A stretch of DNA of 64,000 nucleotides, from positions 1 through 64,000 of the forward strand of contig JAJCXM010000025.1 of assembly GCA_029263455.1 (NCBI GenBank), read 5' to 3'. Both the position numbers and the translations under genes were made by a program. The DNA is from Holophagae bacterium. GTDB lineage: Bacteria; Acidobacteriota; Holophagae; Acanthopleuribacterales; Acanthopleuribacteraceae. Numbering within the stretch: the stretch's first letter is position 1; each line of letters opens with the position of its first letter. Shown here piece by piece: positions 11,841-55,699 of this stretch. The notes under the pieces were generated by a model that saw only the letters and a list, made by a program, of their open reading frames with translations, was not told where the DNA came from and searched no databases.

Positions 11841-12473
11841 ATGAAATATATAACCATCGCCACCATCATTGGCGTTTCCATCGCTAGCTTAGCGCAGGTC
11901 AACGTCGACGATTTCAGCACACCTCAAGGTCCCATTACCCAGTCAGGCGCGATTGGTTCCATGACCGATATGGCCACCGGCGCAGGCATCCTAGGTAGTG
12001 AGCGCACCATCCGTGTCACCTTGGCCAATGCATCGGGAAGCGCGACCTCGGAAGTCACAGGTGGCAATATCACCTTTGTATGTGACCAAGATGCTGACCT
12101 TGAAGTCTGGTGGGACGGCGACACCATGAGCGCATTCAATACGACTGGTTTGGGTGGGGTCGATCTCACTCAATCCATGATGCAAGATCGTTTGACCATC
12201 AACGTTAACGCCAACGACAATACAGGTGCCAACATGGGCGTAACCGTCTACACCGATGGTTCCAACTCTTCGGAACACCAATTCACCATGCCAAGTTCGG
12301 GCTCGGTTGAACTCATGTTCAGTAACTTCAACACCTTGTCGGGCGCAGGTGCTGACTTTACAAACGTAGGTCTGGTCTTCTTTCGCACCATCGACAGGGT
12401 AGGCGCCCGTTCCTTTAGCCTATCGTTCCTTGAGTCAACGCCGGTTGAGCTCGTCGAATTTAGCGTTCAATAG
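11841..12473 (+). CDS. Secreted protein, autotransported-like beta-rich domain, unknown function
   Basis: A 210-residue exported protein. Residues 1-18 (MKYITIATIIGVSIASLA) are a signal peptide. The mature chain is glycine, threonine and asparagine rich with predicted beta structure: DDFSTPQGPITQS, LGSERTIRVTLANASGS, EVWWDGDTMSAFNTTGLGG. I have seen this opening (DDFS-PQGP, followed by GGER-like) in PEP-CTERM-type exported proteins, but no sorting tail is present; the chain ends in TPVELVEFSVQ. A GGGAG site sits five bases before the ATG. The last 14 bases overlap the end of the facing TPR-kinase gene. Role unknown, probably extracellular or surface. Confidence 0.65.
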   Translation: MKYITIATIIGVSIASLAQVNVDDFSTPQGPITQSGAIGSMTDMATGAGILGSERTIRVTLANASGSATSEVTGGNITFVCDQDADLEVWWDGDTMSAFNTTGLGGVDLTQSMMQDRLTINVNANDNTGANMGVTVYTDGSNSSEHQFTMPSSGSVELMFSNFNTLSGAGADFTNVGLVFFRTIDRVGARSFSLSFLESTPVELVEFSVQ

Positions 12474-15327
12474 TCAAGCGCGCTTGGGCTTCACGGGTTG
12501 CGACGGCGTCGCGGCCCAACACCCGCACCAGTAATTCATGACTGAGTTCTAGTCCCTCCTCCGAGCCAGGTTGCATTAAGTCCCTGGCTATGGCCGCACA
12601 AATACTTTGCGTGTTGGCGACTTGCCAATGATCGGGTGGTAGCACTTCACGATATAAGGCAAGCGCCTCTTTCGCCAACGTCGCTGCTTGTTCTAAACGG
12701 CCACCAAGCCTGTAAATCTCTGCTAGTTGCGCCTTTGAGTCGCCCACTTGCGGATGCTTTTCTCCTAGCTTTTGTATTCTAATCTTCAATGCCTCGGACA
12801 AGAGGTTTTCGGCCTCCTTATTGCGATCCAGTGATCGATATAGCCAGCCCAAACTATGCATTGAAAGCGCTGTCATTGGGTGGTCCGCTCCCAACAGAGC
12901 GCGTCTCATTTCAAGTGAGTCCAAATAATATCGCTCAGCTTCTTCGAATTGGGACAGGTTTCTGGCCACCCAACCCAAGTTATGCAGATTGGTTGCAACC
13001 ATGGGGTTTTTAGGGCCATATGCATTTTGGTTGATGGAAAGAGCCTGTTTATATAGCTCGTTTGCTGATTGGAAATCACCGCGCACTTGTTTGACACCCG
13101 CCACGTTATTGATTGCCAGGGCGAGTTCGGGATGGCCAGCGGGGAAACAGGATTCGCGGATTGCTAGTGCTTCAGCAAACAATGTTTCCGACTGCGCATA
13201 ATCACCCACGCGATAGCGATTGACGGCTAGATTATTGAGTGTCACGGCAACATCGGGGTGAGCTTCTCCAAGGGTTGCTCGTCGGATGTTGAGCGCTTCT
13301 CGAAGGTTCATTTCGGCGTTGCCAAAATCGCCATCCCGATCATTGATGTCAGCTGCGATGGTCAAAAGCGTACCCAAATAGGGATGATGTTTGTCGAGAA
13401 ACGTGCGCCCAGATGAAAGCGCGATTTGGATGTGTTCTTTGGCTTGCGCATTGTTGCCCGCTTGAACCAAGACGTCTGCCAATTCACCATGCGCGCTGAT
13501 ACGCGTCATTTCCCCTACCTGCCCATCTAAGCGTGACAGCATGTCCAAGGCCTGCTTTGCCGTAGCCACCGACTCCTGAACTTGGCCACTCTCCCGCAAT
13601 ACGCCAGCTAGACCCAATAGTGATTGCACGACAGCGGGATGGCTGGGCTCGAGTTTGCCTTTGATGTGTTGCACGTTCTCCTGGATGATGCGTTTGGCTT
13701 CATTAATGTTCCCGCGCCGGATTTCTGTCGCCGCATATAGACAGGCCAGTCGTGCTCCGAGATCCACAGAAAGTGTGTCACTGGTGCCAGTCCTCAGCGA
13801 TTCCAGTAACTCATGTACCTGATTGTATTGAGCTTGAGCAAAATGGACCTGTGCTCGATCAAGCATTAACTCTCCTCTTTTGGAGCGACGATTACCGTCG
13901 ATCTGGCTAGATAGATTAATGGCTCGATCCAGGCAGTCGGCCGCTTCATTGTATTGGCCAAATTCGGCATATATTTTCCCAAGTGAGGCCAGCAACGTTG
14001 CTTGGTGCCTGGGTTGCTGGCCTAAACTCTCGGCATAGGACTTACCAGATGCAAGTACCTCAAGGGCCGATATAGACCCGCCCTTGGCTTGACGGGCAAT
14101 ACGAAAGGAGTCGATCAAAGCCTCATTGACCGATTCCGTTTCCGCCATCAATACACGTGACCTGGCTTGCTGTTGTCTTAAACGGCTGGTTTGAAACATT
14201 GAAAAGGCCAGTAAGCAAGCAAGTGTCAGGAGCGTTGCGCCTGTGATGAGTGCCCGTTTGGGGTTGCGTAAGAAAAGCAGTATCAGTTCGTCCCAACCGC
14301 TAGTCGACGCGATGCTGATGGATCGCTTTTCCAGGGTTCGTTTTAGGTCGGTGCGCATTAACTCAAGGGAAGGGTATCGCCGGTTAGCTTCTGGTTCGAG
14401 TGCCTTTTTGAGAATGGCGCGAACCGATTGACTAGGTAACCCATTGGGGAAGGCAACTGAGCTGGCGTCCTTGTCAGGCCCATCATCATCGGCAGGACGT
14501 CGCCCGGTCAAGAGCTCAAAAAGAACCACCGCCAATGAGTAAATGTCCGATGCGACGGTCATGCGCTGACCTGCCCTCTGTTCAGGGCTTGCGTAGGCCC
14601 AGGATAGGGCGCGTTCTTCGTCGAGATTCTGGGTCTCCATCAATTGCGCAATGCCGAAATCGATGAGTTTCACACGACCTTCATCAGTGACCAAGATGTT
14701 CGATGGTTTTAGATCGGCGTGGATGATCAGGTTAGCGTGCGCAAATTGCACCGCGTCACAAACTTGCAAGAAAAGATCGATACGTTGATTGAAGCTGAGT
14801 TGGTGACGGGCGCAATAATCTCGAATCGAAATGCCTTGCACGTATTCCATGATGACATAGGGGTAACCACCTGTTGTCCCGCCATCAAGCATCAACGCGA
14901 TGTGCGGGCTAGTGAGATCACTGAGTATTTGTCGTTCACGGCGGTGTCGCTCAGGGCGGGTGCTGCGGCTGGGTTGTCGACCAATCTTGATGGCAACTTG
15001 GCGATTGAACTCGCCATCAGTGCGCTCTCCCAGATAGACGTCGCTCATGCCGCCTTGCGCGATAAGTTCTTGTACGCGATAGACGCCAATTACTTTGCCG
15101 CACCAGTTCTGTGCGCGTTGATTATTGTCTCGGTGTATGGCCTCCAATGCCGATTCGGGGAAGAGGATCCCCATGTCGTCGCCTTGCAATAAGCCTTCAA
15201 TTAGTCCTGCTAACTCGGGATCGCTGGCGGCAATGTTTGTCAACATCTGCTTTCGAACTTGTTGGCTTTCATCCACAAGCATTGCGAATTGCTCCTGTGC
15301 CACGGCAAAACGAGCTTGATCTAACAT
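12460..15327 (-). CDS. Membrane-anchored Ser/Thr kinase with TPR repeats, non-RD type
   Basis: A 955-residue TPR-kinase. The catalytic domain spans about 83-330: loop IAQGGMSDVYLGE, VAIKI (Lys 114), catalytic loop IIHADLKPSNILV (203-213), LIDFG (221-225) and ASPEQ. The arginine of the usual HRD is replaced by alanine (His 203, Ala 204, Asp 205), so this is a non-RD kinase that keeps its catalytic aspartate. One transmembrane helix lies at about 359-378, followed by more than ten TPR units such as LNNLAVNRYRVGDYAQSETL and LHNLGWVARNLSQFEEAER. The ATG overlaps the last seven bases of the upstream sigma gene (ATGTTAG), implying translational coupling. The 3' end overlaps the facing secreted-protein gene by 14 bp. 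Confidence 0.93.
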   Translation of the reverse strand: MLDQARFAVAQEQFAMLVDESQQVRKQMLTNIAASDPELAGLIEGLLQGDDMGILFPESALEAIHRDNNQRAQNWCGKVIGVYRVQELIAQGGMSDVYLGERTDGEFNRQVAIKIGRQPSRSTRPERHRRERQILSDLTSPHIALMLDGGTTGGYPYVIMEYVQGISIRDYCARHQLSFNQRIDLFLQVCDAVQFAHANLIIHADLKPSNILVTDEGRVKLIDFGIAQLMETQNLDEERALSWAYASPEQRAGQRMTVASDIYSLAVVLFELLTGRRPADDDGPDKDASSVAFPNGLPSQSVRAILKKALEPEANRRYPSLELMRTDLKRTLEKRSISIASTSGWDELILLFLRNPKRALITGATLLTLACLLAFSMFQTSRLRQQQARSRVLMAETESVNEALIDSFRIARQAKGGSISALEVLASGKSYAESLGQQPRHQATLLASLGKIYAEFGQYNEAADCLDRAINLSSQIDGNRRSKRGELMLDRAQVHFAQAQYNQVHELLESLRTGTSDTLSVDLGARLACLYAATEIRRGNINEAKRIIQENVQHIKGKLEPSHPAVVQSLLGLAGVLRESGQVQESVATAKQALDMLSRLDGQVGEMTRISAHGELADVLVQAGNNAQAKEHIQIALSSGRTFLDKHHPYLGTLLTIAADINDRDGDFGNAEMNLREALNIRRATLGEAHPDVAVTLNNLAVNRYRVGDYAQSETLFAEALAIRESCFPAGHPELALAINNVAGVKQVRGDFQSANELYKQALSINQNAYGPKNPMVATNLHNLGWVARNLSQFEEAERYYLDSLEMRRALLGADHPMTALSMHSLGWLYRSLDRNKEAENLLSEALKIRIQKLGEKHPQVGDSKAQLAEIYRLGGRLEQAATLAKEALALYREVLPPDHWQVANTQSICAAIARDLMQPGSEEGLELSHELLVRVLGRDAVATREAQARLTIER

Positions 15328-35940: not shown

Positions 35941-38526
35941 CTACTTCGATGGGTGCCAGCGTTTGCGTTCCAGTTCCTCTTTCCAGCGATCGGGAAGCAC
36001 GGCTGCAAAATCGTCCGCACAATCAGCCCATAAAATAGAGTCATTGGATTCCACCAGCCATTGATCAAATCCTTTGTCCACACTGTTGCGGTTAAGTCTT
36101 GCTTCGTGCAGAAGCTGCACAAATTTCAAACTTGCTTCGTCAGCTTCGCCCAAAGTGAGGCAACTAGTCGACTTGTCCCAATCGCCAATGGCTGCAAAGC
36201 CTGCCGCCAATGACGACCACAGTATTGGGCTTTCCGGTTTCCCTTCAAGCAGCCGGCGTTCCAATAACTCGCGGGCCTCGTTATGGCGGCCCAATCGAAT
36301 AAGCGAGGATACGTAATAGCGTTCGGTATGCAAGGCTGTAAAGCTGGCATAACCAGTTTGTTGGTAACGCCACTGCATACAAGTCTTTAGGACTGGCTCG
36401 GCAAGCTCAGCTTTGCCATATACGAGATAAAAGTAGCCAAGATTGTGGGCGACAAGCATGGTCAAGGGCACTGAATCGCCTAAATGCTCAACAGCTATTT
36501 CAAACGCTTTTTCTTGGGTGCGAATGGCGTGATCAACATCGCGGCGCAAGGTCGTCGTTGCGTATTCGTTCATGACGCTGATGGTCTGATAGTCATGTGG
36601 ACCGAATATGCGTGGATTCTCTTCAAGCAACTCTTCCAAGTATTGAATGCCCTCATCGTAATGATCCGTCTGCACCAGGCACGACGCCAGGTTAGATTTG
36701 AGAATCAATGCGTCGGGGTTATCGGATCCGTGCTGAGCGATGTGGGTCTCGTACACGCGACGCATGTGTGGTTCAGAAAGGCCTGGCTGATCCATGGCCC
36801 CGTAAATGGCGGCCAACAAATTAATGATCACCAATGTATCCTTGTGATCGGGGCCAAACACTTGTTCGTGACGCGAAACCAACGAGGGCAACAACGTTAA
36901 GGCTGTTTCATATTCTTCCATGTCGTAGAGTAGGATGCCGGCAACGTATTCGGCATTTAGCGTCTGCTCGTGCAGTGGTCCCAATTCACGATTTGCTTTG
37001 TTGACGGCTACATCGATAATGCCACTGGCCTCATTGAACAATCCCAGCATGATGTAGGTTTCGGCCAAGGTCGCGCGAATCTCAATTTCGACGGCGGTAT
37101 CCTGCGAATCCGATTCATTTAGCGCGCGTTCGGCACCTTCTAAGACATCTACCATGCGCGCGTCGCGACCCAACTCGCGGGGGTCGGCGGAGACCAACAT
37201 ATCCTTCAAGAAGTCATTGATCGCTTGCGCGCGCCTGGTCTCTTCGTCGGCTCTCGTAAGAGCGCGCTCTGCGCGGATATAACCGACGCCTGCCGCCACG
37301 CCGCCGCCGATCAGACTCAATACAACGATAACGGCCGCTCCCACTAAGTAACGATGGCGGGCAATGTACTTTCGCACAAGGTAAAGCGCATTTGGCGGGT
37401 GGGCCAAAACGGGCCGACCTTCAAGGTAACGCTGGAAATCAGCTGCAAGGTCAGAAGCGCTGGGGTAACGCAGGTCGCGTTCCTTAGCTGTCGCCTTTTT
37501 CACAATCAAGTTCAGGTCGCCTTTGAGTAGCCGTTGTAAAGATTGCGCTTCAAGGTTTCTGGCCAGAATGATCTTCTTTTTGTCTTTCGATTCCAGAGCG
37601 GCAAATCGTTTCGACATGGAAGGCGGCTCGCGATTAAGAATCGACTGCATCACTTCAAAAATAGAAACGTCGCCAAAAACAAACGGCTTCTCGCCACACA
37701 ATAGCTCGTAGCAAATCATGCCCAGCGCATAAATGTCGGTTCTAAGATCCACATCATCGGCATGGTTGACCTGTTCAGGGCTCATGTAGGCAGGTGTGCC
37801 CAAGATAGAGCCGGTTTTAGTACGTGCGGCCTCTTCATCTCCCAGGGGATCCAAGGCCTTAACAATGCCAAAATCAATAATTTTGGGCGTGGCAGATTCC
37901 GATTCCCATTGCACCATGATGTTGGAAGGTTTGAGGTCTCTATGGATTAGACCGCGCATGTGTGCGTGGTGCACGCCTTCACACACTTTGATCATCAGCC
38001 GTAAGCGTTCATCAATATTGAGTTGGTTTTCGTCGGCAAATTTGATAAGTGGATGCCCGTCGACGTATTCCATGGCGAAGAAAGGCAAACCGTTTTCGGT
38101 TGTTCCTGCGTCAAAGAGTTTGGCGATGTAGGAATGCTCTAATCGCGCTAATGCTTGCCGTTCCAGCAACATACGCCCCGCATTGTCTTTACCGAATTGA
38201 TTGATAATTTTGAGGGCCACCAAACGTTGCACGGGTTCTTTTTGTTCGGCGAGGAAGACCTCACCCATGCCGCCCATGCCCAGCAAGCGAATGAGTCTGT
38301 ACTGATCTATCCAGTCTCCAACTTCGGTGGTCTCGCCATGGATAGCCGCCAAATTGGGTCCGACAATGGTTTCGGCCGTGTCTGAGGAGAGTAGGGCTTC
38401 GACCTCATTTCGGAGTGCGCTGTCGTCGCCGCAAGCCTGGTCCAGGAACTGAGTACGTGCCTCACCGGAAAGTTCCACCGCCTGCATAAATACATCTTTG
38501 AGACGGTTCCATTGTGTTTGCGACAT
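35941..38526 (-). CDS. Membrane-anchored Ser/Thr protein kinase with TPR repeats
   Basis: An 861-residue TPR-kinase. N-terminal region QWNRLKDVFMQAVELSGEAR resembles the one at 7317. Kinase domain about 77-360: GMGGMGEVFLAE, VALKI (Lys 106), LIHRDLKPSNIMV (HRD 195-197), KIIDFG (216-220) and YMSPEQ. A transmembrane helix (LVGAAVIVVLSLIGGGVAAG) lies near residues 395-415, with a charged linker, then TPR units (for example LETLLEENPRIF region, YHNLGYFYLVYGKAELAE-like text). No sigma gene is adjacent; its neighbours are the methyltransferase (facing) and a long gap. Confidence 0.93.
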   Translation of the reverse strand: MSQTQWNRLKDVFMQAVELSGEARTQFLDQACGDDSALRNEVEALLSSDTAETIVGPNLAAIHGETTEVGDWIDQYRLIRLLGMGGMGEVFLAEQKEPVQRLVALKIINQFGKDNAGRMLLERQALARLEHSYIAKLFDAGTTENGLPFFAMEYVDGHPLIKFADENQLNIDERLRLMIKVCEGVHHAHMRGLIHRDLKPSNIMVQWESESATPKIIDFGIVKALDPLGDEEAARTKTGSILGTPAYMSPEQVNHADDVDLRTDIYALGMICYELLCGEKPFVFGDVSIFEVMQSILNREPPSMSKRFAALESKDKKKIILARNLEAQSLQRLLKGDLNLIVKKATAKERDLRYPSASDLAADFQRYLEGRPVLAHPPNALYLVRKYIARHRYLVGAAVIVVLSLIGGGVAAGVGYIRAERALTRADEETRRAQAINDFLKDMLVSADPRELGRDARMVDVLEGAERALNESDSQDTAVEIEIRATLAETYIMLGLFNEASGIIDVAVNKANRELGPLHEQTLNAEYVAGILLYDMEEYETALTLLPSLVSRHEQVFGPDHKDTLVIINLLAAIYGAMDQPGLSEPHMRRVYETHIAQHGSDNPDALILKSNLASCLVQTDHYDEGIQYLEELLEENPRIFGPHDYQTISVMNEYATTTLRRDVDHAIRTQEKAFEIAVEHLGDSVPLTMLVAHNLGYFYLVYGKAELAEPVLKTCMQWRYQQTGYASFTALHTERYYVSSLIRLGRHNEARELLERRLLEGKPESPILWSSLAAGFAAIGDWDKSTSCLTLGEADEASLKFVQLLHEARLNRNSVDKGFDQWLVESNDSILWADCADDFAAVLPDRWKEELERKRWHPSK

Positions 38527-39008: not shown

Positions 39009-42000
39009 TTGATTCTTACTTCAAATAGCCATTTCGCTAAGCCAAATCTATTGGCGTTTTCGAGGATCGCCGCGTGGATCGTCGCGTTACTTTCGATCGT
39101 CGTTCTTTGCGCCTGGATATTTGAAGTACAGTTGATCAAGAGCGTTGCCCCTAATTTTGTGACCATGAAATCCAATACCGCTTTGGCGTTTTTGTTTTCG
39201 GCGGCTTCATTATGGTTGTTGCAGACTGAAAAATCCGTGAAGAAGTCGAGGTTGGCGTCGCGAATTTGTTCGTTGACTGTCTTTGTCATTAGTTTAGTAA
39301 CTATATTGGAGTACCTATTTGGTCTCAACTTAGGCATAGACCAGATTTTGTTTCAAGATGATCCCAATTCACTTAATACGCATTCACCAGGTCGAATGTC
39401 GCCAGCCACGTCCTTTAATTTTTTTGTCCTGAGTGCGGCTATTTTTTGTTTGGACTGGCGGCCTAAAGTCTCTTATCCTCTGACCCTGGTGGTATTGATC
39501 GTCTCGTTGATCGCGGTATTGGGATATGCTTATGGTGTACATTCTCTGTACGAAGTTAGTTTTTATTCGTCCATGGCGATCCACACAGCTGGCGCGTTCA
39601 CGTTGTTGTCACTTGGACTGCTCGCCTCGCGACCAGAAATTGGATTTACGCAGGTTGTTGTCAGCGAATTCGCCGGTGGCATCGTTGCTCGTCGCTTGTT
39701 GTTGGTGATCCCCCTAGTGCTTTTTGTGCTTGGACTATTGCGCCATGCAGGGGAAGTACAAGGTTATTATGACGGATCTTTTGGCGTGGCTTTGATGGTA
39801 ACGATAAGCATTGCCACAGCGATGTTTTTAACAGCTTGGACGGCTCAGATCGTTCACCGCCTCGATTTGCAACGGGCTCATTCGCTGGAAGAAGTGAGGG
39901 CTTCTCGCGAATGGCTCAATCATGTGGTTTACAGCATGGGTGAAGCCGTTATTACAACGGATGATCATCGTCGTGTCAGATTAATGAATGCTGTGGCAGA
40001 GGAGCTAACCGGATGGTCGGAGAGGGAAGCTTCGGGACGAACGATTAGTGAAATTTTCGTCATTTCAGACGAGCAAACGGGCCAGGTTCTTGAGGATCCC
40101 GTAACCCAAGTGCTGCAAAAAAGATCGATTGAACGTCAGTTCGACCATATTCAATTGACGTCGCGGCAGGGGGTTAAGAGACCTATTGCTGATAGCGGCG
40201 CACCTGTTCTTGACGCCCACCAAAAACTTATGGGAGCCGTATTGGTTTTCAGAGATCGAACGGAAGAACGCGCGGCGGAAAGAGCGGTATCCGAAGCACG
40301 CAAATTTGCTGAGAGCATTGTTACTACCATTAACCAACCTATTCTCGTATTGGACCACCAATTACGAGTGATGGCGGCCAATCCAGCGTACTATCGCGCC
40401 TTTCAGGAATGCGCAAAAGAAACGATTGGAGCTAACTTCTTCAACCTGGGTGCCGGTCATTGGGATGTAGGTGAAGTTCGCCAAAACCTTAGCTCCATTC
40501 TGCCTCTTAATACGACGTTGGAAGGATTTCAGATTGAGCAGACATTTGCCAAGATTGGGCGACGGATCTTAAAACTGAATGCCCGACGAATTTACCGACA
40601 AGAAAACGAAACAGACACATTGCTTGTCACGATCGACGATTATACGGCACGTTACCGCGCCGAAAGCAAATTCCGTGACCTACTAGAATCGGCACCTGAT
40701 CCCATGATCATCATCAATGAAGAGGGTGAAATTGAGCTCTTGAATCGGCAAACTGAACATGTGTTTGGATACGATCGCGGAGAGTTAATAGGTAAGCCCA
40801 TCGAGTGTCTTATCCCTCCGCGTTTTCGCGAAAATCACCCAAGCTTCCGTGCCCAATATCTAAAAGATGCGGTGACGCGAAAAATGGGACAAGGTGCTCA
40901 ACTTTATGGTTATCGGAAGAATGGAGAAGAGTTCCCGATCGACACCAGCCTTGGGCCGCTGATAACCGATGACGGTGTGCTTGTTTCCTGTGCGATTCGC
41001 GATGTTTCTGATCGCAAGAATTTGGAAGAACGCTATTTTCAGGCACAAAAAATGGAAGCTGTTGGCAAACTAGCTGGGGGTATTGCCCATGATTTCAACA
41101 ACCTGTTGACTGTTATTATCGGCTATGGTGAGTTGGTATTGACCCATATGGCGAAGGACGATTCGCAACGAGATTCAATGGAATCGATTTACGAAGCGGG
41201 TGGCCGAGCGGCAGCGTTGACGAGACAACTACTTGCTTTTAGTCGACAGACGCTAATCGAACCAAAGAACCTAGATCTTAATGCCGTTGTGGCCGACACA
41301 GAAAAGATGCTCAGCCGCCTTATTCCTGAAGACATTACACTAACGACGCTCTTTGACCGAGATATTCAGTTGATCTGTGTTGATCCAGGCCAAATTGGAC
41401 AGATCCTTATGAACTTGGCAGTCAACGCCTGCGACGCGATGCCGAAAGGTGGTCAACTCACCATTGAAACGCATCATGTAGAATTCGATCAAGGCTATGT
41501 CAGTCAACATCCACAAATTAAGGTGGGTAATTATGTTCGGTTGACCGTTTCTGATACCGGATTTGGAATGGCGCCTGATATAAAAGCCAAAATATTTGAG
41601 CCCTTCTTTACGACCAAAGGAATCGGTAAGGGAACAGGTTTGGGGCTTTCGACCGTGTATGGCATGGTTAAGCAAAGCCTTGGTTCTATCGAAGTGTACA
41701 GTGAGGTTGGCGTAGGAACGACATTCAAACTCTATTTTCCGACCGTTAGCGCTGGTGCAGTCCTATCGCAGCCTGAAAAAGTGAAGCCTTCTGCCAAAAC
41801 GGGAACGGAAACGGTTCTTCTAGTTGAAGACGAAGAAGGCGTGCGCAAATTCACAAAACTAGCCCTGGAATCCTATGGCTATAAGGTGGTCGAAGCAGAA
41901 AATGGGGCGCGTGCTTTGGCACTTGCCAACCGATATGTAGGTACCCTGAATCTGTTGATGACTGACATCGTCATGCCCGAAATGAGCGGTCGTGAGTTGT

Positions 42001-42173
42001 CCGAGAAACTAGCTGAAAAATTTCCAAATCTAAAGAAACTTTACGTCAGTGGTTACACCGATGACACCATCGTTCGCCATGGCCTATTGAATGCGGGATC
42101 ATCCTTTTTGCAGAAACCGTATTCGGTGCATGTTTTGGCTCGTCGTGTCCGCGACGTCCTAGATATGCAATAA
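39009..42173 (+). CDS. Hybrid sensor histidine kinase with multi-span membrane sensor and PAS domains
   Basis: A 1054-residue hybrid kinase. Residues 1-290 hold about seven transmembrane helices (for example IAAWIVALLSIVVLCAWIF, PLTLVVLIVSLIAVLGYAYG), then three PAS regions (EWLNHVVYSMGEAVITTDD near 300; AESIVTTINQPILVLDHQL; KFRDLLESAPDPMIIINEEG). The HisKA box LAGGIAHDFNNLLTVI has the phosphoacceptor His at 694. The ATPase domain shows NLAVNACDAMPKGG, DTGFGMAP and GKGTGLGLSTVYG. A C-terminal receiver has LLVEDEEG, LLMTDIVMPEMSG (Asp 986), SGYTDD and LQKPYS. The TTG start at 39009 has no clear ribosome-binding site, but no later start would keep the first helix. A receiver on the same chain plus the lone regulator at 34610 could form a relay. 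Confidence 0.9.
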   Translation: MILTSNSHFAKPNLLAFSRIAAWIVALLSIVVLCAWIFEVQLIKSVAPNFVTMKSNTALAFLFSAASLWLLQTEKSVKKSRLASRICSLTVFVISLVTILEYLFGLNLGIDQILFQDDPNSLNTHSPGRMSPATSFNFFVLSAAIFCLDWRPKVSYPLTLVVLIVSLIAVLGYAYGVHSLYEVSFYSSMAIHTAGAFTLLSLGLLASRPEIGFTQVVVSEFAGGIVARRLLLVIPLVLFVLGLLRHAGEVQGYYDGSFGVALMVTISIATAMFLTAWTAQIVHRLDLQRAHSLEEVRASREWLNHVVYSMGEAVITTDDHRRVRLMNAVAEELTGWSEREASGRTISEIFVISDEQTGQVLEDPVTQVLQKRSIERQFDHIQLTSRQGVKRPIADSGAPVLDAHQKLMGAVLVFRDRTEERAAERAVSEARKFAESIVTTINQPILVLDHQLRVMAANPAYYRAFQECAKETIGANFFNLGAGHWDVGEVRQNLSSILPLNTTLEGFQIEQTFAKIGRRILKLNARRIYRQENETDTLLVTIDDYTARYRAESKFRDLLESAPDPMIIINEEGEIELLNRQTEHVFGYDRGELIGKPIECLIPPRFRENHPSFRAQYLKDAVTRKMGQGAQLYGYRKNGEEFPIDTSLGPLITDDGVLVSCAIRDVSDRKNLEERYFQAQKMEAVGKLAGGIAHDFNNLLTVIIGYGELVLTHMAKDDSQRDSMESIYEAGGRAAALTRQLLAFSRQTLIEPKNLDLNAVVADTEKMLSRLIPEDITLTTLFDRDIQLICVDPGQIGQILMNLAVNACDAMPKGGQLTIETHHVEFDQGYVSQHPQIKVGNYVRLTVSDTGFGMAPDIKAKIFEPFFTTKGIGKGTGLGLSTVYGMVKQSLGSIEVYSEVGVGTTFKLYFPTVSAGAVLSQPEKVKPSAKTGTETVLLVEDEEGVRKFTKLALESYGYKVVEAENGARALALANRYVGTLNLLMTDIVMPEMSGRELSEKLAEKFPNLKKLYVSGYTDDTIVRHGLLNAGSSFLQKPYSVHVLARRVRDVLDMQ

Positions 42174-42328: not shown

Positions 42329-43999
42329 ATGATTCAATTTGCGTGGGTTATTTCTGCACTATGGCTACAAGAAGTCAGTTTGCCACTGTCGGAGTATGAG
42401 GCGCTGTGGCGGCGTGTACATCCCTCTGAGTTTCAGGTTAATGATGAGCGTGAAGCAGCCATCATCGAACGCGCCGATGTACAGATGACCATTGACAAGG
42501 ATCGCGTGCGTCTTAAAACCAAGTACCGAATTCGCGTCGTGCATAAACAAAAAGTCCGATTGTCGCTTGGTTCGGGACGCTTGGTCTCCATCGATTCCCA
42601 TGGCTCCGCTATCTTTGTTGAGCGTTCCGACGATACAAATCAATGGGTTGTTGATGAAGAAGCTGGCGTTTACGACGTTTCTGCGGACATGGTTTTGCCG
42701 CTCACACCGCTGACGTCTACGGCTCGTGCATCCTCTCAGATTGAGTGGCTAGCTCCAGTGGCTGGCGCTATTCGGGTGCAATTGAAGCTACCCGAAGATA
42801 TGGAAATCGCCTGCGATAAAGGTGGAGTCATGCTGGAGGGAGACTCTCCGATTCTGATTGCTGAGTCTGGTGAACCGCTAATTCTGCATGTGGGCAACCG
42901 CCGCCAACAGGAGGAGCAACAACCTTTTTCCTATCGAGCGCAAGTAACGGCATCGGATTCGGTGGCACGGACACGACGACAGATCCGCACCCAAATCAAC
43001 CTGATTAAACAGGGCGGCGAGTGGCAACCGCTTGTCATTCAGCTACCCGAAGGCGCAGAGCTGGCACGCATCGAAGCGCCCGACGAAGTAGGGCACACAG
43101 TGGAGGAGTCGCGCTTGACAGTTAATGTGCCCGTTGGTTTCGGTCGCATCTGTGACTTAGGCTTGGTGTTTCGCCTGGAACCAACGCAGTCGTTTCTTAA
43201 CCTTGTGCCGACCCCCGAAGGTGCCGTTCAGACTGAATGGTTAGTGGGAACGTTAATCGAAGGAGACGGCCTGTTGGTGTTAGTCGATAGCGGACGTACA
43301 CAGATTGTGAACAACACAGACGAACTCATAACGAGAATAAACCAGACGTTCTCCCGCTTCCATGCTCGTGGAAGTCAAGTGAGCGATTTCGGGACTGCCC
43401 TTGAAGCACAAACATCAGATGCCTTAGCTGAGTGGTCGGTGGAATGGTCTGAAACCGCTGAACTTCTGGCGCTGCGCATAGACACCGCTCACGTGCGTGT
43501 CACTTTGGGGTCTGCCGGTCATGCGCTCTACCAAGTGTGGTTTGAAGTATTCAACAACGGCGCGGGCCGCCTGGACTTCATGCTTCCTGAAGGCGCGCAA
43601 TGGACCAAAGTGATGCGAGACCAAACGGTTGTGCAGGCCGCGCAATTGGGCCGATCGATCAGTGTGCCCCTACGCGCCGCACCTGAAACAAAGCAGATCG
43701 TGTTCTGTTCCGCGATCGTGCCCTTAGATTTACCGAATGAAGGCTCATTCCGGCTAGCGCTTCCAGCCTGCTCGGCTCCTATGGCCCAAGTGCGTTTGGC
43801 TCTGATTTCGCCGCCTGGCTTTAAATTGAAGGCCAGTGCTGACAAACCGAACAGGCAATTCGCGCCACCTAGTCACGCTGAAATAATGTTTCCGCAGGGC
43901 TTTGAAGAGGTCGCGTACGGGTGGAATGCGATGGCAAGCCAGTTGGAACCGGTGACGATAGATGTTGATGTGAAAAACACGAGGGATGGCTGGCTATGA
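42329..43999 (+). CDS. Large exported protein of unknown function (first of a coupled pair)
   Basis: A 556-residue protein. A signal-like start (MIQFAWVISALWLQEV) is followed by SLPLSEYEALWRRVHPSE, then long beta-rich sequence (VQMTIDKDRVRLKTKYRIRV, LGSGRLVSIDSHGSAIFVE, EWLAPVAGAIRVQLKLPED). I recognise no named domain. The frame opens at 42278 with a TTG, but the ATG at 42329 has GGAGG five bases upstream (42319-42323) and precedes the signal, which decides the start. The next gene overlaps by 4 bp (ATGA) and starts with a similar motif, so the two are co-translated and probably assemble together. Confidence 0.7.
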   Translation: MIQFAWVISALWLQEVSLPLSEYEALWRRVHPSEFQVNDEREAAIIERADVQMTIDKDRVRLKTKYRIRVVHKQKVRLSLGSGRLVSIDSHGSAIFVERSDDTNQWVVDEEAGVYDVSADMVLPLTPLTSTARASSQIEWLAPVAGAIRVQLKLPEDMEIACDKGGVMLEGDSPILIAESGEPLILHVGNRRQQEEQQPFSYRAQVTASDSVARTRRQIRTQINLIKQGGEWQPLVIQLPEGAELARIEAPDEVGHTVEESRLTVNVPVGFGRICDLGLVFRLEPTQSFLNLVPTPEGAVQTEWLVGTLIEGDGLLVLVDSGRTQIVNNTDELITRINQTFSRFHARGSQVSDFGTALEAQTSDALAEWSVEWSETAELLALRIDTAHVRVTLGSAGHALYQVWFEVFNNGAGRLDFMLPEGAQWTKVMRDQTVVQAAQLGRSISVPLRAAPETKQIVFCSAIVPLDLPNEGSFRLALPACSAPMAQVRLALISPPGFKLKASADKPNRQFAPPSHAEIMFPQGFEEVAYGWNAMASQLEPVTIDVDVKNTRDGWL

Positions 44000-46131
44000 T
44001 GACCACGATTATGTTTCTATTCACAGTCATGGCCCAGGAATCAGTGGTCAATTTGCCTTTAACCGATTATCTAGAACTTAAAAAGGCGGCCGAACAGCTT
44101 GATCGTGATCAAGCCCTAATGCCGGAACTCACACTGGTTTCATGCGAAGCCGTCGTGCATTTCAAGGAGAAGATTGCCGAGATCGATACAAACTTCACGA
44201 TACAAGTTTCAGGCAAGCTCGACGATCTTGCCATTTCTCTGACCGGTACGCCCGTTTCTGCTGTAACTGGTGATCAGCCAAGCAGTGTCAGGTACGTTGA
44301 CGGTAAACTTTGGTTCACGCCATTGAAGACAGGCCGGCACCAAATTAAGGTGCGATCGGTGACGGCGCTTTCGTCTTCGCGTGGAACGAAATCCATGCGC
44401 ATGGCGCCCTTTGAAGCCTCCGTAAATCGCTTAACGTTAGTACTTGAATCCAAGTGGGATTGGCGTTTGCCCGACGCGGCACTTATTCGAGAAACAACGG
44501 GCGAACAGGAGACGAGCGTTGAGTTGGCCCCGCCATTGGGCATCGATAGTCGGCTAAGTTTAGTCCCAAAACTGGATCAAAACGTCGCTTTACGTGCAGA
44601 AGCTACGCTTGTAACCATCATGGATGTTGGCCGCGATTCGACACGTTTCCTGCACGGTGTCTTTTATAAGGTTTATTCGGGGTCGCTTGCCGAACAATCG
44701 CTTGTTGGATTGGATCGCGCCCATCTGGAACAAGCCTGGACCAGTGACGTGAATTTCAGCCGAGATGAAGTTTACCAATCAAATATGATCGAAATTCAAG
44801 GTCAAAAACGGATTGTGAACCCTGCTTGGAATAGTGAACGCGCATCGATTCCCTTGATCCACCTACTTGAGGATACAGGCTATGCTGTGTGGAAGACACG
44901 ACCTCTAAAGGGCGACACATTGACGTTACCTTCACTTGATCCTGGCGTGCCTATCCGCGCCCATTTTCTTGTGCAGTCGTCGTCGCGTGTCGTTGAAGCC
45001 CAACTCTCCGAAGTAGATGGGTGGCAGCGGGTTGACATGACCGATTTGCCGGCGGAATTCACAGAAATGGCAAAGGCTGAACAATGTTCGGCTTTGTCTG
45101 TGTGGCGCAGAGCCGCAGCTGAATCTACCAGTCAGATCACACTTAAACGTTTTCCAGATGCCGAGGAACTAGAAACGGTCGTTGCCAGTCGGACCACAAC
45201 CACCTTGGTCACCATCGAAGGACGGCTGGTCCACCGCGATGTCCTGCAACTCAAACGTATGGGCTCTTTTCTTGAAATGACCTTACCAGCCACCGCCAGT
45301 TTGTGGTCTACTTTGGTCGATGGCGTTGCCATCAGGCCGCTTGTACAGGGCGACTTGGTTAAGATACCTGTGACGCCCGGTCGTCGTGACAAATGCGAGT
45401 TAGAGGTTGTTAGCGTTGCCGAACACAACATGCCTTCCTCTCGCACCACATTGGCGCTCTCATTACCCGCGTGGCGGGTGCCCGTTTTGCAACATGAATG
45501 GAAGCTAGTACTCCCTGAACATCGTCGTTACCGTTTCCGGTTTGGCGATTTAGAGCCGGTCCCACTTTCGCAATATGAGGCAACAGGTAATGTATCCGTT
45601 TCGATTGGCAAACATTCTGGGGGCGGAATAATCGCTGGCCGTATAACAGACGATAACGATTCAGCTCTTCCTGGAGTGGTGGTCGGGCTTGCTCAAAACC
45701 CGAGCACGACAGTTGTTACTGACGCCGACGGAAGGTTCAAAATCTTCAACTTGGAGCCAGGTAACTACACAATCGTTGCCACAATGGCTGGCTTCAACAC
45801 ACTGAAAAACGAGGTGCTCGTGCGCTCCGGCACAACGCACACTTTCAATTTGGTTTTACCTCTGGCGTCGGTTAATGAACTGCTTGTAATTAGCACAGTC
45901 GGAAAGTCACGGAAATCGACGCCTGATGAGCTGGCTGGCGCATCGTCCTTTCAGAACACCTACCTGGCGCAACAGGTCATTCAAGAAGATATCTATTCCA
46001 ATTTCCAAGCTGGATTAGTTGGAGGCGTTAGACCAATCCCTGTGGCTGTTCCTGAAACCGGAAAATTAATGGTGTTTTCTGGTGTGTTGCCACCTTCGAC
46101 CATCCGCTTGGAATTAGATGTGAAAAAGTGA
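43996..46131 (+). CDS. Large exported protein with carboxypeptidase-regulatory-like domain
   Basis: A 711-residue protein beginning with a signal-like segment (MFLFTVMAQ) and NLPLTDYLELKKAAEQLD, a near match in layout to SLPLSEYEALW of the upstream partner. The first 530 residues are beta-rich. About residues 540-632 form a carboxypeptidase-regulatory-like domain (PF13620): GRITDDNDSALPGVVVGLAQ, TVVTDADGRFKIFNLEPGNY, VATMAGFNTLKNEVLVRSG. The tail (TPDELAGASSFQNTYLAQ, QVIQEDIYSNFQAGLVGG) resembles the linker of Oar-like TonB receptors, but no plug or barrel follows. The 4-bp overlap implies co-translation with the preceding gene. Cell-envelope role inferred, function unknown. Confidence 0.75.
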   Translation: MMTTIMFLFTVMAQESVVNLPLTDYLELKKAAEQLDRDQALMPELTLVSCEAVVHFKEKIAEIDTNFTIQVSGKLDDLAISLTGTPVSAVTGDQPSSVRYVDGKLWFTPLKTGRHQIKVRSVTALSSSRGTKSMRMAPFEASVNRLTLVLESKWDWRLPDAALIRETTGEQETSVELAPPLGIDSRLSLVPKLDQNVALRAEATLVTIMDVGRDSTRFLHGVFYKVYSGSLAEQSLVGLDRAHLEQAWTSDVNFSRDEVYQSNMIEIQGQKRIVNPAWNSERASIPLIHLLEDTGYAVWKTRPLKGDTLTLPSLDPGVPIRAHFLVQSSSRVVEAQLSEVDGWQRVDMTDLPAEFTEMAKAEQCSALSVWRRAAAESTSQITLKRFPDAEELETVVASRTTTTLVTIEGRLVHRDVLQLKRMGSFLEMTLPATASLWSTLVDGVAIRPLVQGDLVKIPVTPGRRDKCELEVVSVAEHNMPSSRTTLALSLPAWRVPVLQHEWKLVLPEHRRYRFRFGDLEPVPLSQYEATGNVSVSIGKHSGGGIIAGRITDDNDSALPGVVVGLAQNPSTTVVTDADGRFKIFNLEPGNYTIVATMAGFNTLKNEVLVRSGTTHTFNLVLPLASVNELLVISTVGKSRKSTPDELAGASSFQNTYLAQQVIQEDIYSNFQAGLVGGVRPIPVAVPETGKLMVFSGVLPPSTIRLELDVKK

Positions 46132-52269: not shown

Positions 52270-55254
52270 TTAACGTATTTGCTTAAGCCAACTTGCGATT
52301 TCTTGAGTTTCTTTAGCGTCCTCACCGAGGGTATCTTGGACGATGATTAACGCGGACTCTAGCATCGTGCGGGCTTCGTCGATCTTACTCTGCTGCCCCA
52401 GAACGGAACCCAGTAAGGCGCGGGCATGGGCCGTACGCCAATCGTTAGATGTGTAGGTCTTTTCCATGATCGTCACGGCTCGTCTGATACGTTCTTCTGC
52501 TTCAGGGTACCGCTTTCCGTGCACATCTACCTGTGCCAACCCAATCAAAGTCGCGGCTACCTGATAGTGATCTGGACCCAAGCTGGTTTCTTGAATCACC
52601 ATCGCATCGCGAAACAATGTCGCGGCTTCTGTTAGTTTGGCTTGGTCTAAAAGAAACTTGCCGTATTCCGACATGATGTTGGCGAGCGAAGGGTGATCTG
52701 CTTTAAGCGTGTCTCGGCTGATAGAAAGTGCTTTAGCAAAATAGCTATCGGCCTCGTTGCTCTGATCCATGTTCCAGAGAATATTAGCCAAAATCCCCAT
52801 CGTATTCGCGACTCGTGAATCTTGTTCGCCGTAGATGCGTATGCGCATAGCCAAAGCCTCGCGACAGAGAGGTAGCGCTTCTGCAAACTTATGTTGTTGC
52901 TGCAGCATGCCTGCTAGGTTGCCGAGCGAATAGCTAATCTTAGGGTGGTCCTCTGTGAGGCTTGCTCGCTGTATGGCGAGACACTTGCGAATCAAGGGTT
53001 CCGCTTCTTCAACGCGTCCTTGCCGTTGAACAGTCACAGCAAGATTATTTAGCGCATTGGCATATTCGGGATGCTGCTCGCCTAACTGATCCCGCCTGAT
53101 CTCAATCACTTCTCGAAAAAGCGGTTCTGCCTGTTCCATTTCGCCCCTACGAACTAAGAACACGGCCAGATTGTTTATTGCGCCGGCCGTTTCTGGATGA
53201 CGGTCACCAAAGAGCGTTCGCGCCATGTCGAGTGCTTGTTGGTAGTGCGGTCGTGCGGACTCGTTGTCACCTTCAAGAGAGAGCGAACTAGCCAAACCCC
53301 TTGTTAACTCAAATCGATCTGGATGGGCTTCATCACCATAGATATCTCTAGCAAGTCCAAGGCCCTCGCGGTAGGTGGCAATCGCTTGGTCAAGCGTGCC
53401 GCGTTCCCGGTGAAGTGAGGCTAATTGATATAGGTCCTTAAGCACCAGCGGGTTCGGCTGATTGGGTTCGCTTCGATCAAGGGCCAAAGCCTCCTGCAGC
53501 AAAGGTTCAGCCATGTCGAAGTCCCCTTCGCTCCGTTGGATCATAGCAATTGATCGCAGGCAGTGGGCCACATCTGGATGTCCGTTGGGGTGCAACAGTC
53601 GTTGCATCTCCAATGCCTTTTGGTGGAATGCCAGCGACTCGGCGCGATCACCCTTGTCCCAGTAAAGAGAAGCGATGTTGGACAGGCATTGTGCCACTTC
53701 CGTTCGATCGCCTAGATCGCGAAGCTGTGCCAGCGCTGAATTTAGTAGCGGTAAGGCTTCGTCATAGAGACCTAGCGAGTGGTACACCATGCCAATGGTG
53801 TTCTTCATTCGTGCCTGGACCAACGGCTGGTCATGAAGTTCTTTATCAATAGAAATGGCACCATTATCGAGAATCTCACGGGCCGTGATCGAGTTTCCGC
53901 GAGCTTCGGATGGTAGGGACACTTGAAATAGGCCGACCAGGAAATCGGAGACTTCATGGGCGGTAGCTGCTTCGTTCCCAGCACGGTCAGCTTCAGCTTG
54001 CGCACGGGTGAGACCAATCGTCGTGCCAACGATACCGCCCACTAGTGCGAGTACCAAAACTAATGCACCAATCACGGTAAACGTATTGCGTTCGAAGAAC
54101 TTACGCGCCACGTACCATTTGGATGGCGGCCTTGCTTCTACAGGTTCGTGCGCAAGGTAGCGACGGAGGTCTTCGGCCAAGGAAGTAGGCGATCCGTATC
54201 TGGCGTCACGGTCCTTGGCGATGGCGCGCATGACGATCCAGTCCAGGTCACCTCTTAAACGCTTTTCAATGGCCAGCGGTTGACTGCAACGTCGAGTGGC
54301 CGCTTGTGCTTGCTCTTCGTCGGAAAGCGAATGCCATTTGGTACTTGGTTTGGATGCCTCGTCCTTGGCGACGCGATGCAGGACCTGAAGGATGCCTAAC
54401 CCTTTGGCGTCATGCGGCTTGCAGCCCACCAGCAATTCGTAGAGTAGGATGCCCAAGGAGTAGACGTCAATACGCGTGTCCACGTCGTCACCGGATTGAA
54501 TGACCTCAGGTGCCATATAGGACGGCGTACCCAGAATGCGCTGCCCGGTCAGGTCCTGGTCTTCCAACAGACCCTGGTCGATCACCTTAGCCACGCCGAA
54601 ATCGATGATCTTGGGAACGTTTCGCCCATTTATGCGCGCTACAAGGATGTTGTTGGGTTTGATATCGCGGTGAATGACACCCTTTTGGTGTGCGTGGGCC
54701 ACACCTTCACAGACAAGGCGGAACAGCTCCAGCCGCGCGTTGAGGTCAAGAACCTGATCGTCACAAAATTCGGTGACCGGTTTCCCATCCACATATTCCA
54801 TAGCGAAGAAGGGCAGTTGTTCCTCAGTCGTCGAGGCTTCATACAGCTGCGCAATGTATGGGTGCGTGAGGTTAGCTAACACTTGGCGTTCAGCGTGAAA
54901 ACGGGCCAATGCTTGACTTTGCCGCATGGGTCTAGGCACGATTTTGAGTGCCACCTTACGGGTGATCGGCTCCTTCTGTTCGGCCAGGTAGACGACGCCC
55001 ATACCGCCTTGTCCCAACAGTTCGATGATTTCATAACAGCCGATACGGCGCTCTGTTTCCAGTTGGAAGGCCGGGGCGGAACTTGGCTGGTCGGTATGGG
55101 TTGCATCGGAGGCCATGTAGGCCTCTACATCACGCTTCAGATCGGCATTATCGCCACATTCTTTTTCAAGGATGCGGGCGTGTTCAGCGGCTGGAGCATC
55201 GCTCAGGCGTGCAACGATGGCTTGGATACGTGTCAGGCGGTCTAGTCGATCCAC
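52270..55254 (-). CDS. Membrane-anchored Ser/Thr protein kinase with TPR repeats
   Basis: A 994-residue TPR-kinase. Kinase domain: ELLGQGGMGVVYLAEQKEPI, VALKIV, GVIHRDIKPNNILVA, KIIDFGVAK and YMAPEVI. A transmembrane helix (VIGALVLVLALVGGIVGTTI) near residue 400 is followed by a long series of TPR units (SLGLYDEALPLLNSALAQL, NNLAVFLVRRGEMEQAEPL, YSLGNLAGMLQQQHKFAEAL). The frame opens at a TTG (55284), but GTG 55254 has GGGGAG five bases upstream and decides the start. Two other kinases in the window share the GKP-type and FAMEYVDG wording, showing recent family expansion. No sigma gene is next to it. Confidence 0.94.
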   Translation of the reverse strand: MDRLDRLTRIQAIVARLSDAPAAEHARILEKECGDNADLKRDVEAYMASDATHTDQPSSAPAFQLETERRIGCYEIIELLGQGGMGVVYLAEQKEPITRKVALKIVPRPMRQSQALARFHAERQVLANLTHPYIAQLYEASTTEEQLPFFAMEYVDGKPVTEFCDDQVLDLNARLELFRLVCEGVAHAHQKGVIHRDIKPNNILVARINGRNVPKIIDFGVAKVIDQGLLEDQDLTGQRILGTPSYMAPEVIQSGDDVDTRIDVYSLGILLYELLVGCKPHDAKGLGILQVLHRVAKDEASKPSTKWHSLSDEEQAQAATRRCSQPLAIEKRLRGDLDWIVMRAIAKDRDARYGSPTSLAEDLRRYLAHEPVEARPPSKWYVARKFFERNTFTVIGALVLVLALVGGIVGTTIGLTRAQAEADRAGNEAATAHEVSDFLVGLFQVSLPSEARGNSITAREILDNGAISIDKELHDQPLVQARMKNTIGMVYHSLGLYDEALPLLNSALAQLRDLGDRTEVAQCLSNIASLYWDKGDRAESLAFHQKALEMQRLLHPNGHPDVAHCLRSIAMIQRSEGDFDMAEPLLQEALALDRSEPNQPNPLVLKDLYQLASLHRERGTLDQAIATYREGLGLARDIYGDEAHPDRFELTRGLASSLSLEGDNESARPHYQQALDMARTLFGDRHPETAGAINNLAVFLVRRGEMEQAEPLFREVIEIRRDQLGEQHPEYANALNNLAVTVQRQGRVEEAEPLIRKCLAIQRASLTEDHPKISYSLGNLAGMLQQQHKFAEALPLCREALAMRIRIYGEQDSRVANTMGILANILWNMDQSNEADSYFAKALSISRDTLKADHPSLANIMSEYGKFLLDQAKLTEAATLFRDAMVIQETSLGPDHYQVAATLIGLAQVDVHGKRYPEAEERIRRAVTIMEKTYTSNDWRTAHARALLGSVLGQQSKIDEARTMLESALIIVQDTLGEDAKETQEIASWLKQIR

Positions 55255-55699
55255 ATGCGCTCCCCGCTGAGCGAATCGACGCAATACGAAGACTCGCTTT
55301 AATCATTTGCTGCGGGAATCGTCGCAAAAATCGCAGTAAGAAGCTAGGACTTGTAACGACGATCTCTCAAGTTCATCAACCGGATCCCTGACGACCTCAG
55401 GTTCGACTCACGAGTGATACAGCCTAATTGTCGATGGAGAGAAAAAATCTACATGTCAACCTGAGCGCACGGGTCAAATCGATGATTGAGGTAGACGTCA
55501 ATCTCAGTAAGAGTCGTTTACCCGTTTTTATGATATCAGGGGAGCTAGCTGCTAATTCTCCCCATCGGTCCAAGAAAACAACAACATAGTAAAATCTGCC
55601 TGAAGTATTTTCCGCGTGCCTGTGCTCATATACGAATAAAGGAGATAGATTCTAGGCAAAACCGATTTACACCGGTCTTGCCTAGAAACGTGAAGCCAG
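55255..55699. other. Intergenic region upstream of the kinase
   Basis: A 445-bp minus-strand promoter region for the kinase. It contains the strong terminator of the preceding gene (55650-55687). From 55300 to 55640 I see no gene and no other structure. Confidence 0.4.
55650..55687 (-). terminator. Strong intrinsic terminator of the IPTL-CTERM gene
   Basis: On the minus strand TTCTAGGCAAGACCG pairs with CGGTTTTGCCTAGAA over 15 bp with one G-U pair and an 8-nt loop. It begins 13 bases after the stop at 55700. A pyrimidine-rich tail (TCTATCTCCTTTATT) follows, so it fits a terminator that separates this gene from the kinase. Confidence 0.8.

Follow-up and report, generated by a model that had tools for sequence, protein, structure and literature searches.

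Two large genes, here called ORF1 and ORF2 after the order in which they lie on the forward strand of the window (the whole stretch of 64,000 nucleotides that was analysed), share four bases that serve as the stop of the first and the start of the second (Table 1). A GGAGG sequence stands a few bases 5' of the ORF1 start codon at 42329, and from the overlap we infer that the two genes are translationally coupled. The initial annotation had described them as overlapping by ATGA and as encoding mostly unassigned proteins, the second with a carboxypeptidase-regulatory-like domain near its C-terminus and neither plug nor barrel, about 150 bp downstream of a hybrid histidine kinase on the same strand, and in all these respects it stands. 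The gap to the kinase is 155 bp, and the domain in ORF2 is CarboxypepD_reg (PF13620, residues 546-621, E 1.5e-16), the only one to pass the cut-off; ORF1 and the rest of ORF2 gave no Pfam or NCBIfam match above it, and PDB sequence searches returned nothing except relatives of CarboxypepD_reg or chance matches. Since neither protein matches a plug or beta-barrel model in Pfam or NCBIfam, ORF2 does not classify as a TonB-dependent receptor. ORF1 and ORF2 represent what we call families A and B, respectively.

Table 1. Features of the two-gene locus and positions of the longer relatives; unprefixed coordinates are those of the window
Feature	Coordinates	Strand	Description or basis
Hybrid histidine kinase, neighbour	39009..42173	+	3 PAS, HisKA, HATPase, receiver
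ORF1 (family A)	42329..43999	+	556 aa, probably exported; three predicted beta domains, no CarboxypepD_reg
ORF1 N-terminal motif VSLPLSEYEAL	42374..42406	+	Family alignment
ORF1 domain 1, counterpart of the M1-N-terminal-domain-like domain in the family-A model	42443..42907	+	Alignment column mapping; model fold
ORF1 domain 3, best conserved part of the A/B family	43451..43876	+	Alignment mapping
ATGA, ORF1 stop / ORF2 start	43996..43999	+	4-base overlap, read from the sequence
ORF2 (family B)	43996..46131	+	711 aa, probably exported; A-like plus CarboxypepD_reg inserted near the C-terminus
ORF2 N-terminal motif VNLPLTDYLEL	44047..44079	+	Family alignment
ORF2 domain 3, first part	45157..45582	+	Alignment mapping
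CarboxypepD_reg / transthyretin-like domain, predicted insertion in ORF2 domain 3	45631..45858	+	Pfam and AF2
ORF2 C-terminal conserved motif GVRPIPVAVPETGKLMVFSGVLPP	46024..46095	+	Kept in G001 and G401; predicted to complete domain 3
Loci of ~1000-aa relatives	L009:5338-11154, L008:5089-10801, L121:7104-13195, L122:6582-12674, L124:2424-8130		

Both proteins begin with a short hydrophobic stretch followed by a motif of the form V-x-LPL-[ST]-x-Y-x-x-L, as had been noticed at the outset, and a relaxed form of it occurs near the N-terminus of 45 of the 51 aligned family members. Because of this recurrence, and because the A and B profiles are clearly homologous (E 3e-41, hhalign), the shared motif is more than a chance resemblance; in a model of family A described below, a helix is predicted at about residues 41-51, the place equivalent to the ORF1 motif. 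As read, both signal sequences are atypical in their shortness and in having no charged N-region, and it is mainly the ordinary signal peptides of relatives that lead us to regard ORF1 and ORF2 as probably exported. Very short hydrophobic signal-like starts of the same kind occur in several predicted exported proteins of the source genus (42329, 43996, 46217 (-), 26848 (-) and 29484 in the window; L007 8877-10943 (-)), examples being MIILLLCLAQEVTLPL in L007 and MLWMLLFLTQD in the window.

The source genome (G000) belongs to a small family of Acidobacteriota with seven genomes in our comparison set. A genome of the same genus (G001) bears a coupled pair with ORFs of 529 and 689 aa, 28-30% identical, and a pair that is equally close (24-30% identical, with the same C-terminal motifs) is found in a genome of another family (G401), orthologues of both ORF1 and ORF2 being present in each. 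The pair also recurs in Terriglobia-type genomes, where the counterpart of the ORF2 motif GVRPIPVAVPETGKLMVFSGVLPP reads ..GVLPVRVDVPRAG..F.RPLVLDEET. Searching public genomes with the ORF1 sequence by itself gave no match; profiles were needed to reach the distant pairs, and it was a profile of longer, ~1000-aa relatives that led to them. The genome scan with the B profile A5 yielded 42 loci, nearly all titled Acidobacteriota, and a 4-base overlap is present in 36 of the 39 at which both genes could be placed (33 ATGA, 3 GTGA). Thus, rather than being found apart in relatives, A and B stay adjacent in distant Acidobacteriota. What marks the pair at our locus is that the two genes are adjacent, co-oriented and homologous and overlap stop to start, and that ORF2 has its CarboxypepD_reg near the C-terminus, followed by a conserved C-terminal motif.

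In a survey of 396 Acidobacteriota genomes, the A profile matched 21 (~5%), and B was adjacent in all eight genomes with a strong A match; B-profile matches in 389 of the 396 were discounted, since nearly all of them are the CarboxypepD_reg domain alone. Judged by these profile matches, the A-B unit is conserved but patchy, and with any A match in so small a share of the genomes it is not a core function. No universal conserved neighbour of the pair was found across the 42 loci. In nine of them (L073, L076, L080, L083, L084, L096, L102, L103, L105) the pair is followed by a co-oriented ~450-aa protein-kinase-like gene, in most cases no more than 200 bp away. A contig titled Betaproteobacteria (L066) carries a typical Acidobacteriota A-B pair, its B protein 59% identical, and the label may be wrong. 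By eye, a single 611-aa gene in G211 (L056:8808-10643 (-)) combines an A-type N-terminus with a B-type C-terminal half including CarboxypepD_reg, and looks as if A and B had been fused by deletion.

In profile comparisons (hhalign), ORF2 aligns with the B profile over residues 10-695 and clearly prefers it (E 1.5e-25, versus 3.9e-12 for A), whereas ORF1, matched by the A profile over nearly its whole length, prefers A only slightly (1e-12 versus 2.3e-11 for B). A B profile of the window type finds the B proteins of G305 (4.6e-36) and G243 (2.7e-34), with matches that extend well beyond CarboxypepD_reg. On a tree of domain 3, the A proteins of the window, G001 and G401 form one clade (100/99), as do their B proteins (100/100), the tested ~1000-aa relatives form a separate one (99/98), and A and B split once, in 75% of bootstrap trees, some branches being long. 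This single split is as expected if one old duplication gave rise to A and B, which were then inherited together, and it is suggestive of their being paralogues of that origin. Within the chain, domains 1 and 3 are alike by profile (E 1.6e-5), and no similarity between domains 1 and 2 was detected by profile.

Structure prediction, which the initial annotation had proposed as a check, succeeded in part. The AF2 model of ORF2, for which an alignment with 31 B proteins was used, is poor overall (pLDDT 56) except for its transthyretin-like (TTR-like) domain, which is confident (pLDDT ~90) and superimposes closely on that of carboxypeptidase D (Z 13.9, rmsd 1.3 Å). For this reason a representative of family A (L065:6001-8001) was modelled next, with 51 sequences and a good result (pLDDT 83.4, pTM 0.54), so that the A fold discussed here is taken from a relative ~20% identical and not from ORF1 itself. 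Its top match (Foldseek, VIA-align) is Ost1/ribophorin I (E 4.5e-9, Z 14.9, residues 62-395), where the overall rmsd of 24 Å reflects two domains that are alike but set at another angle. Next in rank are the N-terminal domains of M1 aminopeptidases and leukotriene A4 (LTA4) hydrolase (Z 13.8, rmsd 2.8 Å over 147 residues). M1 N-terminal domains also align across residues 390-709 of the low-confidence ORF2 model, with ~150 residues matched; as this alignment spans the insertion, the C-terminal motif is predicted to complete the last domain. From the models we infer that A and B are strings of beta-sandwich domains, at least one of them like the M1 aminopeptidase N-terminal domain, a fold that Ost1/ribophorin I likewise uses in tandem, and that the last domain of B carries the transthyretin-like domain as an insertion.

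These likenesses have clear limits. One domain of the A model has the N-terminal-domain fold of the M1 enzymes, but A and B have no catalytic domain; the HExxH zinc site and the GxMEN motif occur in none of the 51 family members, and there was no M1 Pfam match among the matches listed for them. Similarly, ORF2 has its CarboxypepD_reg in common with TonB-dependent receptors and carboxypeptidases but differs from them in lacking plug, barrel and peptidase, and in that the domain appears to be inserted within another one. Closer at hand are the relatives of ~1000-1076 aa (in G000, G001, G401, G357 and G386; Table 1), which have the N-terminal motif and domain 3 in common with A and B but are single longer chains anchored by two C-terminal membrane helices, and whose genes directly follow that of a large protein of another kind (814-963 aa). 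The latter contains TonB_C in L008 and L009 (G000, G001), with a weak anti-sigma match in L009, and this arrangement suggests an envelope role for the family. A VWA domain in the same upstream protein was suspected by eye and was dropped, as Pfam did not confirm it. Two further proteins of ~1590 aa, in G213 and G199 (L055:8980-13761, L060:3240-7958), have two copies of the family domains per chain, each copy followed, by eye, by membrane helices.

The reading that we favour, though we give it somewhat less than an even chance, is that A and B make up a coupled exported heterodimer that acts as a non-catalytic binding or scaffold complex in the envelope, the kinase not included. Translational coupling would supply A and B in equal amounts; both would be exported and form a soluble heterodimer, in the periplasm or at the cell surface, which would act as the binding or scaffold complex, with the insertion of B or the N-terminal helix as a possible docking element. 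That HExxH was not found makes a non-catalytic scaffold or binding pair the most likely kind of function. A and B are likely to belong to one assembly, although coupling and shared inheritance are no proof of binding.

Several alternatives have to be weighed against this heterodimer. First, A and B could be structural proteins of the surface, forming a stalk, an adhesin or an S-layer-like array rather than a periplasmic binding pair. The multidomain beta-sandwich architecture would suit such a role, S-layer and MSCRAMM models give weak scores for the CarboxypepD_reg region, and Foldseek listed pilin structures among the matches of the low-confidence ORF2 model. However, the common TTR-like domain is where the S-layer and MSCRAMM matches lie, neither an anchor or sorting signal nor repeats or an export apparatus were seen, and the confident family-A model gives domains of the M1-N and Ost1 kind instead, such that we regard this alternative as unlikely, if the strongest of those considered. 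Second, A and B might be redundant paralogues that share an operon and never meet, as duplicates with the same domain plan might do; against this, the two have remained recognisably different neighbours, joined by the same overlap, despite deep divergence, and we hold it to be rather less probable than a surface structure. Third, and a shade more doubtful again, B could use its receptor-like CarboxypepD_reg and linker to dock on outer-membrane receptors, making the pair an accessory of TonB-dependent uptake. The source genome encodes many ~1000-aa proteins that contain this same CarboxypepD_reg, the structural matches include a SusC N-terminal extension, and the ~1000-aa relatives follow the TonB_C protein; yet no receptor gene adjoins the pair in the loci read, and some B proteins (L063) have an eroded CarboxypepD_reg or none.

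A more specific proposal, which we consider improbable, is that A-B is a bacterial relative of Ost1/ribophorin I, that is, a paired exported complex binding secreted or modified polypeptides in the envelope. Ost1 (PF04597) is a non-catalytic subunit of oligosaccharyltransferase, reported only from eukaryotes and from TACK and Asgard archaea (PMC11417166), and has two similar luminal beta domains and binds glycosylated peptides (review, PMC7226087). Exported, beta-rich and non-catalytic, it resembles A and B as we read them, and the family-A model aligns with it, domain by domain, over two tandem domains. Its membrane-helix end is paralleled in some relatives of A and B but in neither A nor B, which, moreover, come as a gene pair. 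At the sequence level, PF04597 gave no match at E 1 in eight pair-bearing genomes and was not among the matches listed for the 51 family members. Three of the eight pair-bearing genomes have an STT3 profile match and five have none; a link to N-glycosylation is therefore not supported.

The least probable reading, and a very improbable one, is that the hybrid kinase is a dedicated sensor or regulator of the pair: it lies on the same strand, separated by its 155-bp gap with no convincing terminator, but the same-genus genome G001, in which the pair is retained, contains nothing that matches the kinase's sensor region (window 39036-40100), no hybrid kinase stands beside the pair in G001, none is among the neighbouring genes read in G401, and at the four of 42 Acidobacteriota loci where a kinase of hybrid type is in view (L080, L092, L103, L105) the nearest is 1.5 kb off, none being within 1 kb. 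On these comparisons we rejected the linkage; the kinase most likely lies beside the pair by chance and is no part of the system. Of the undescribed envelope assembly with its own sensor that the initial annotation had envisaged, the pair itself therefore holds, being conserved, coupled and without a family model, whereas the co-occurrence with the kinase does not. The window also encodes several large Ser/Thr protein kinase-like proteins with tandem repeats (4492-7317 (-), 12460-15327 (-), 35941-38526 (-) and 52270-55284 (-)), some of them beside short sigma-factor-like genes.

Taken together, the sequence comparisons mark A/B as an undescribed family of the Acidobacteriota that no database used here names, and no relevant paper came up in a literature search on the two genes together. 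Treating the kinase as separate from the pair avoids an annotation that would mislead. Should the Ost1-like arrangement of domains prove true, an arrangement reported in eukaryotes and some archaea would gain a bacterial example, and if A-B is indeed a relative of Ost1, the tandem domain would have existed outside archaea and eukaryotes and would work without an oligosaccharyltransferase. The cell envelope of the Acidobacteriota is little studied, and these two large envelope proteins, conserved and coupled as a pair and without a Pfam or NCBIfam model, offer a defined and testable target within it.
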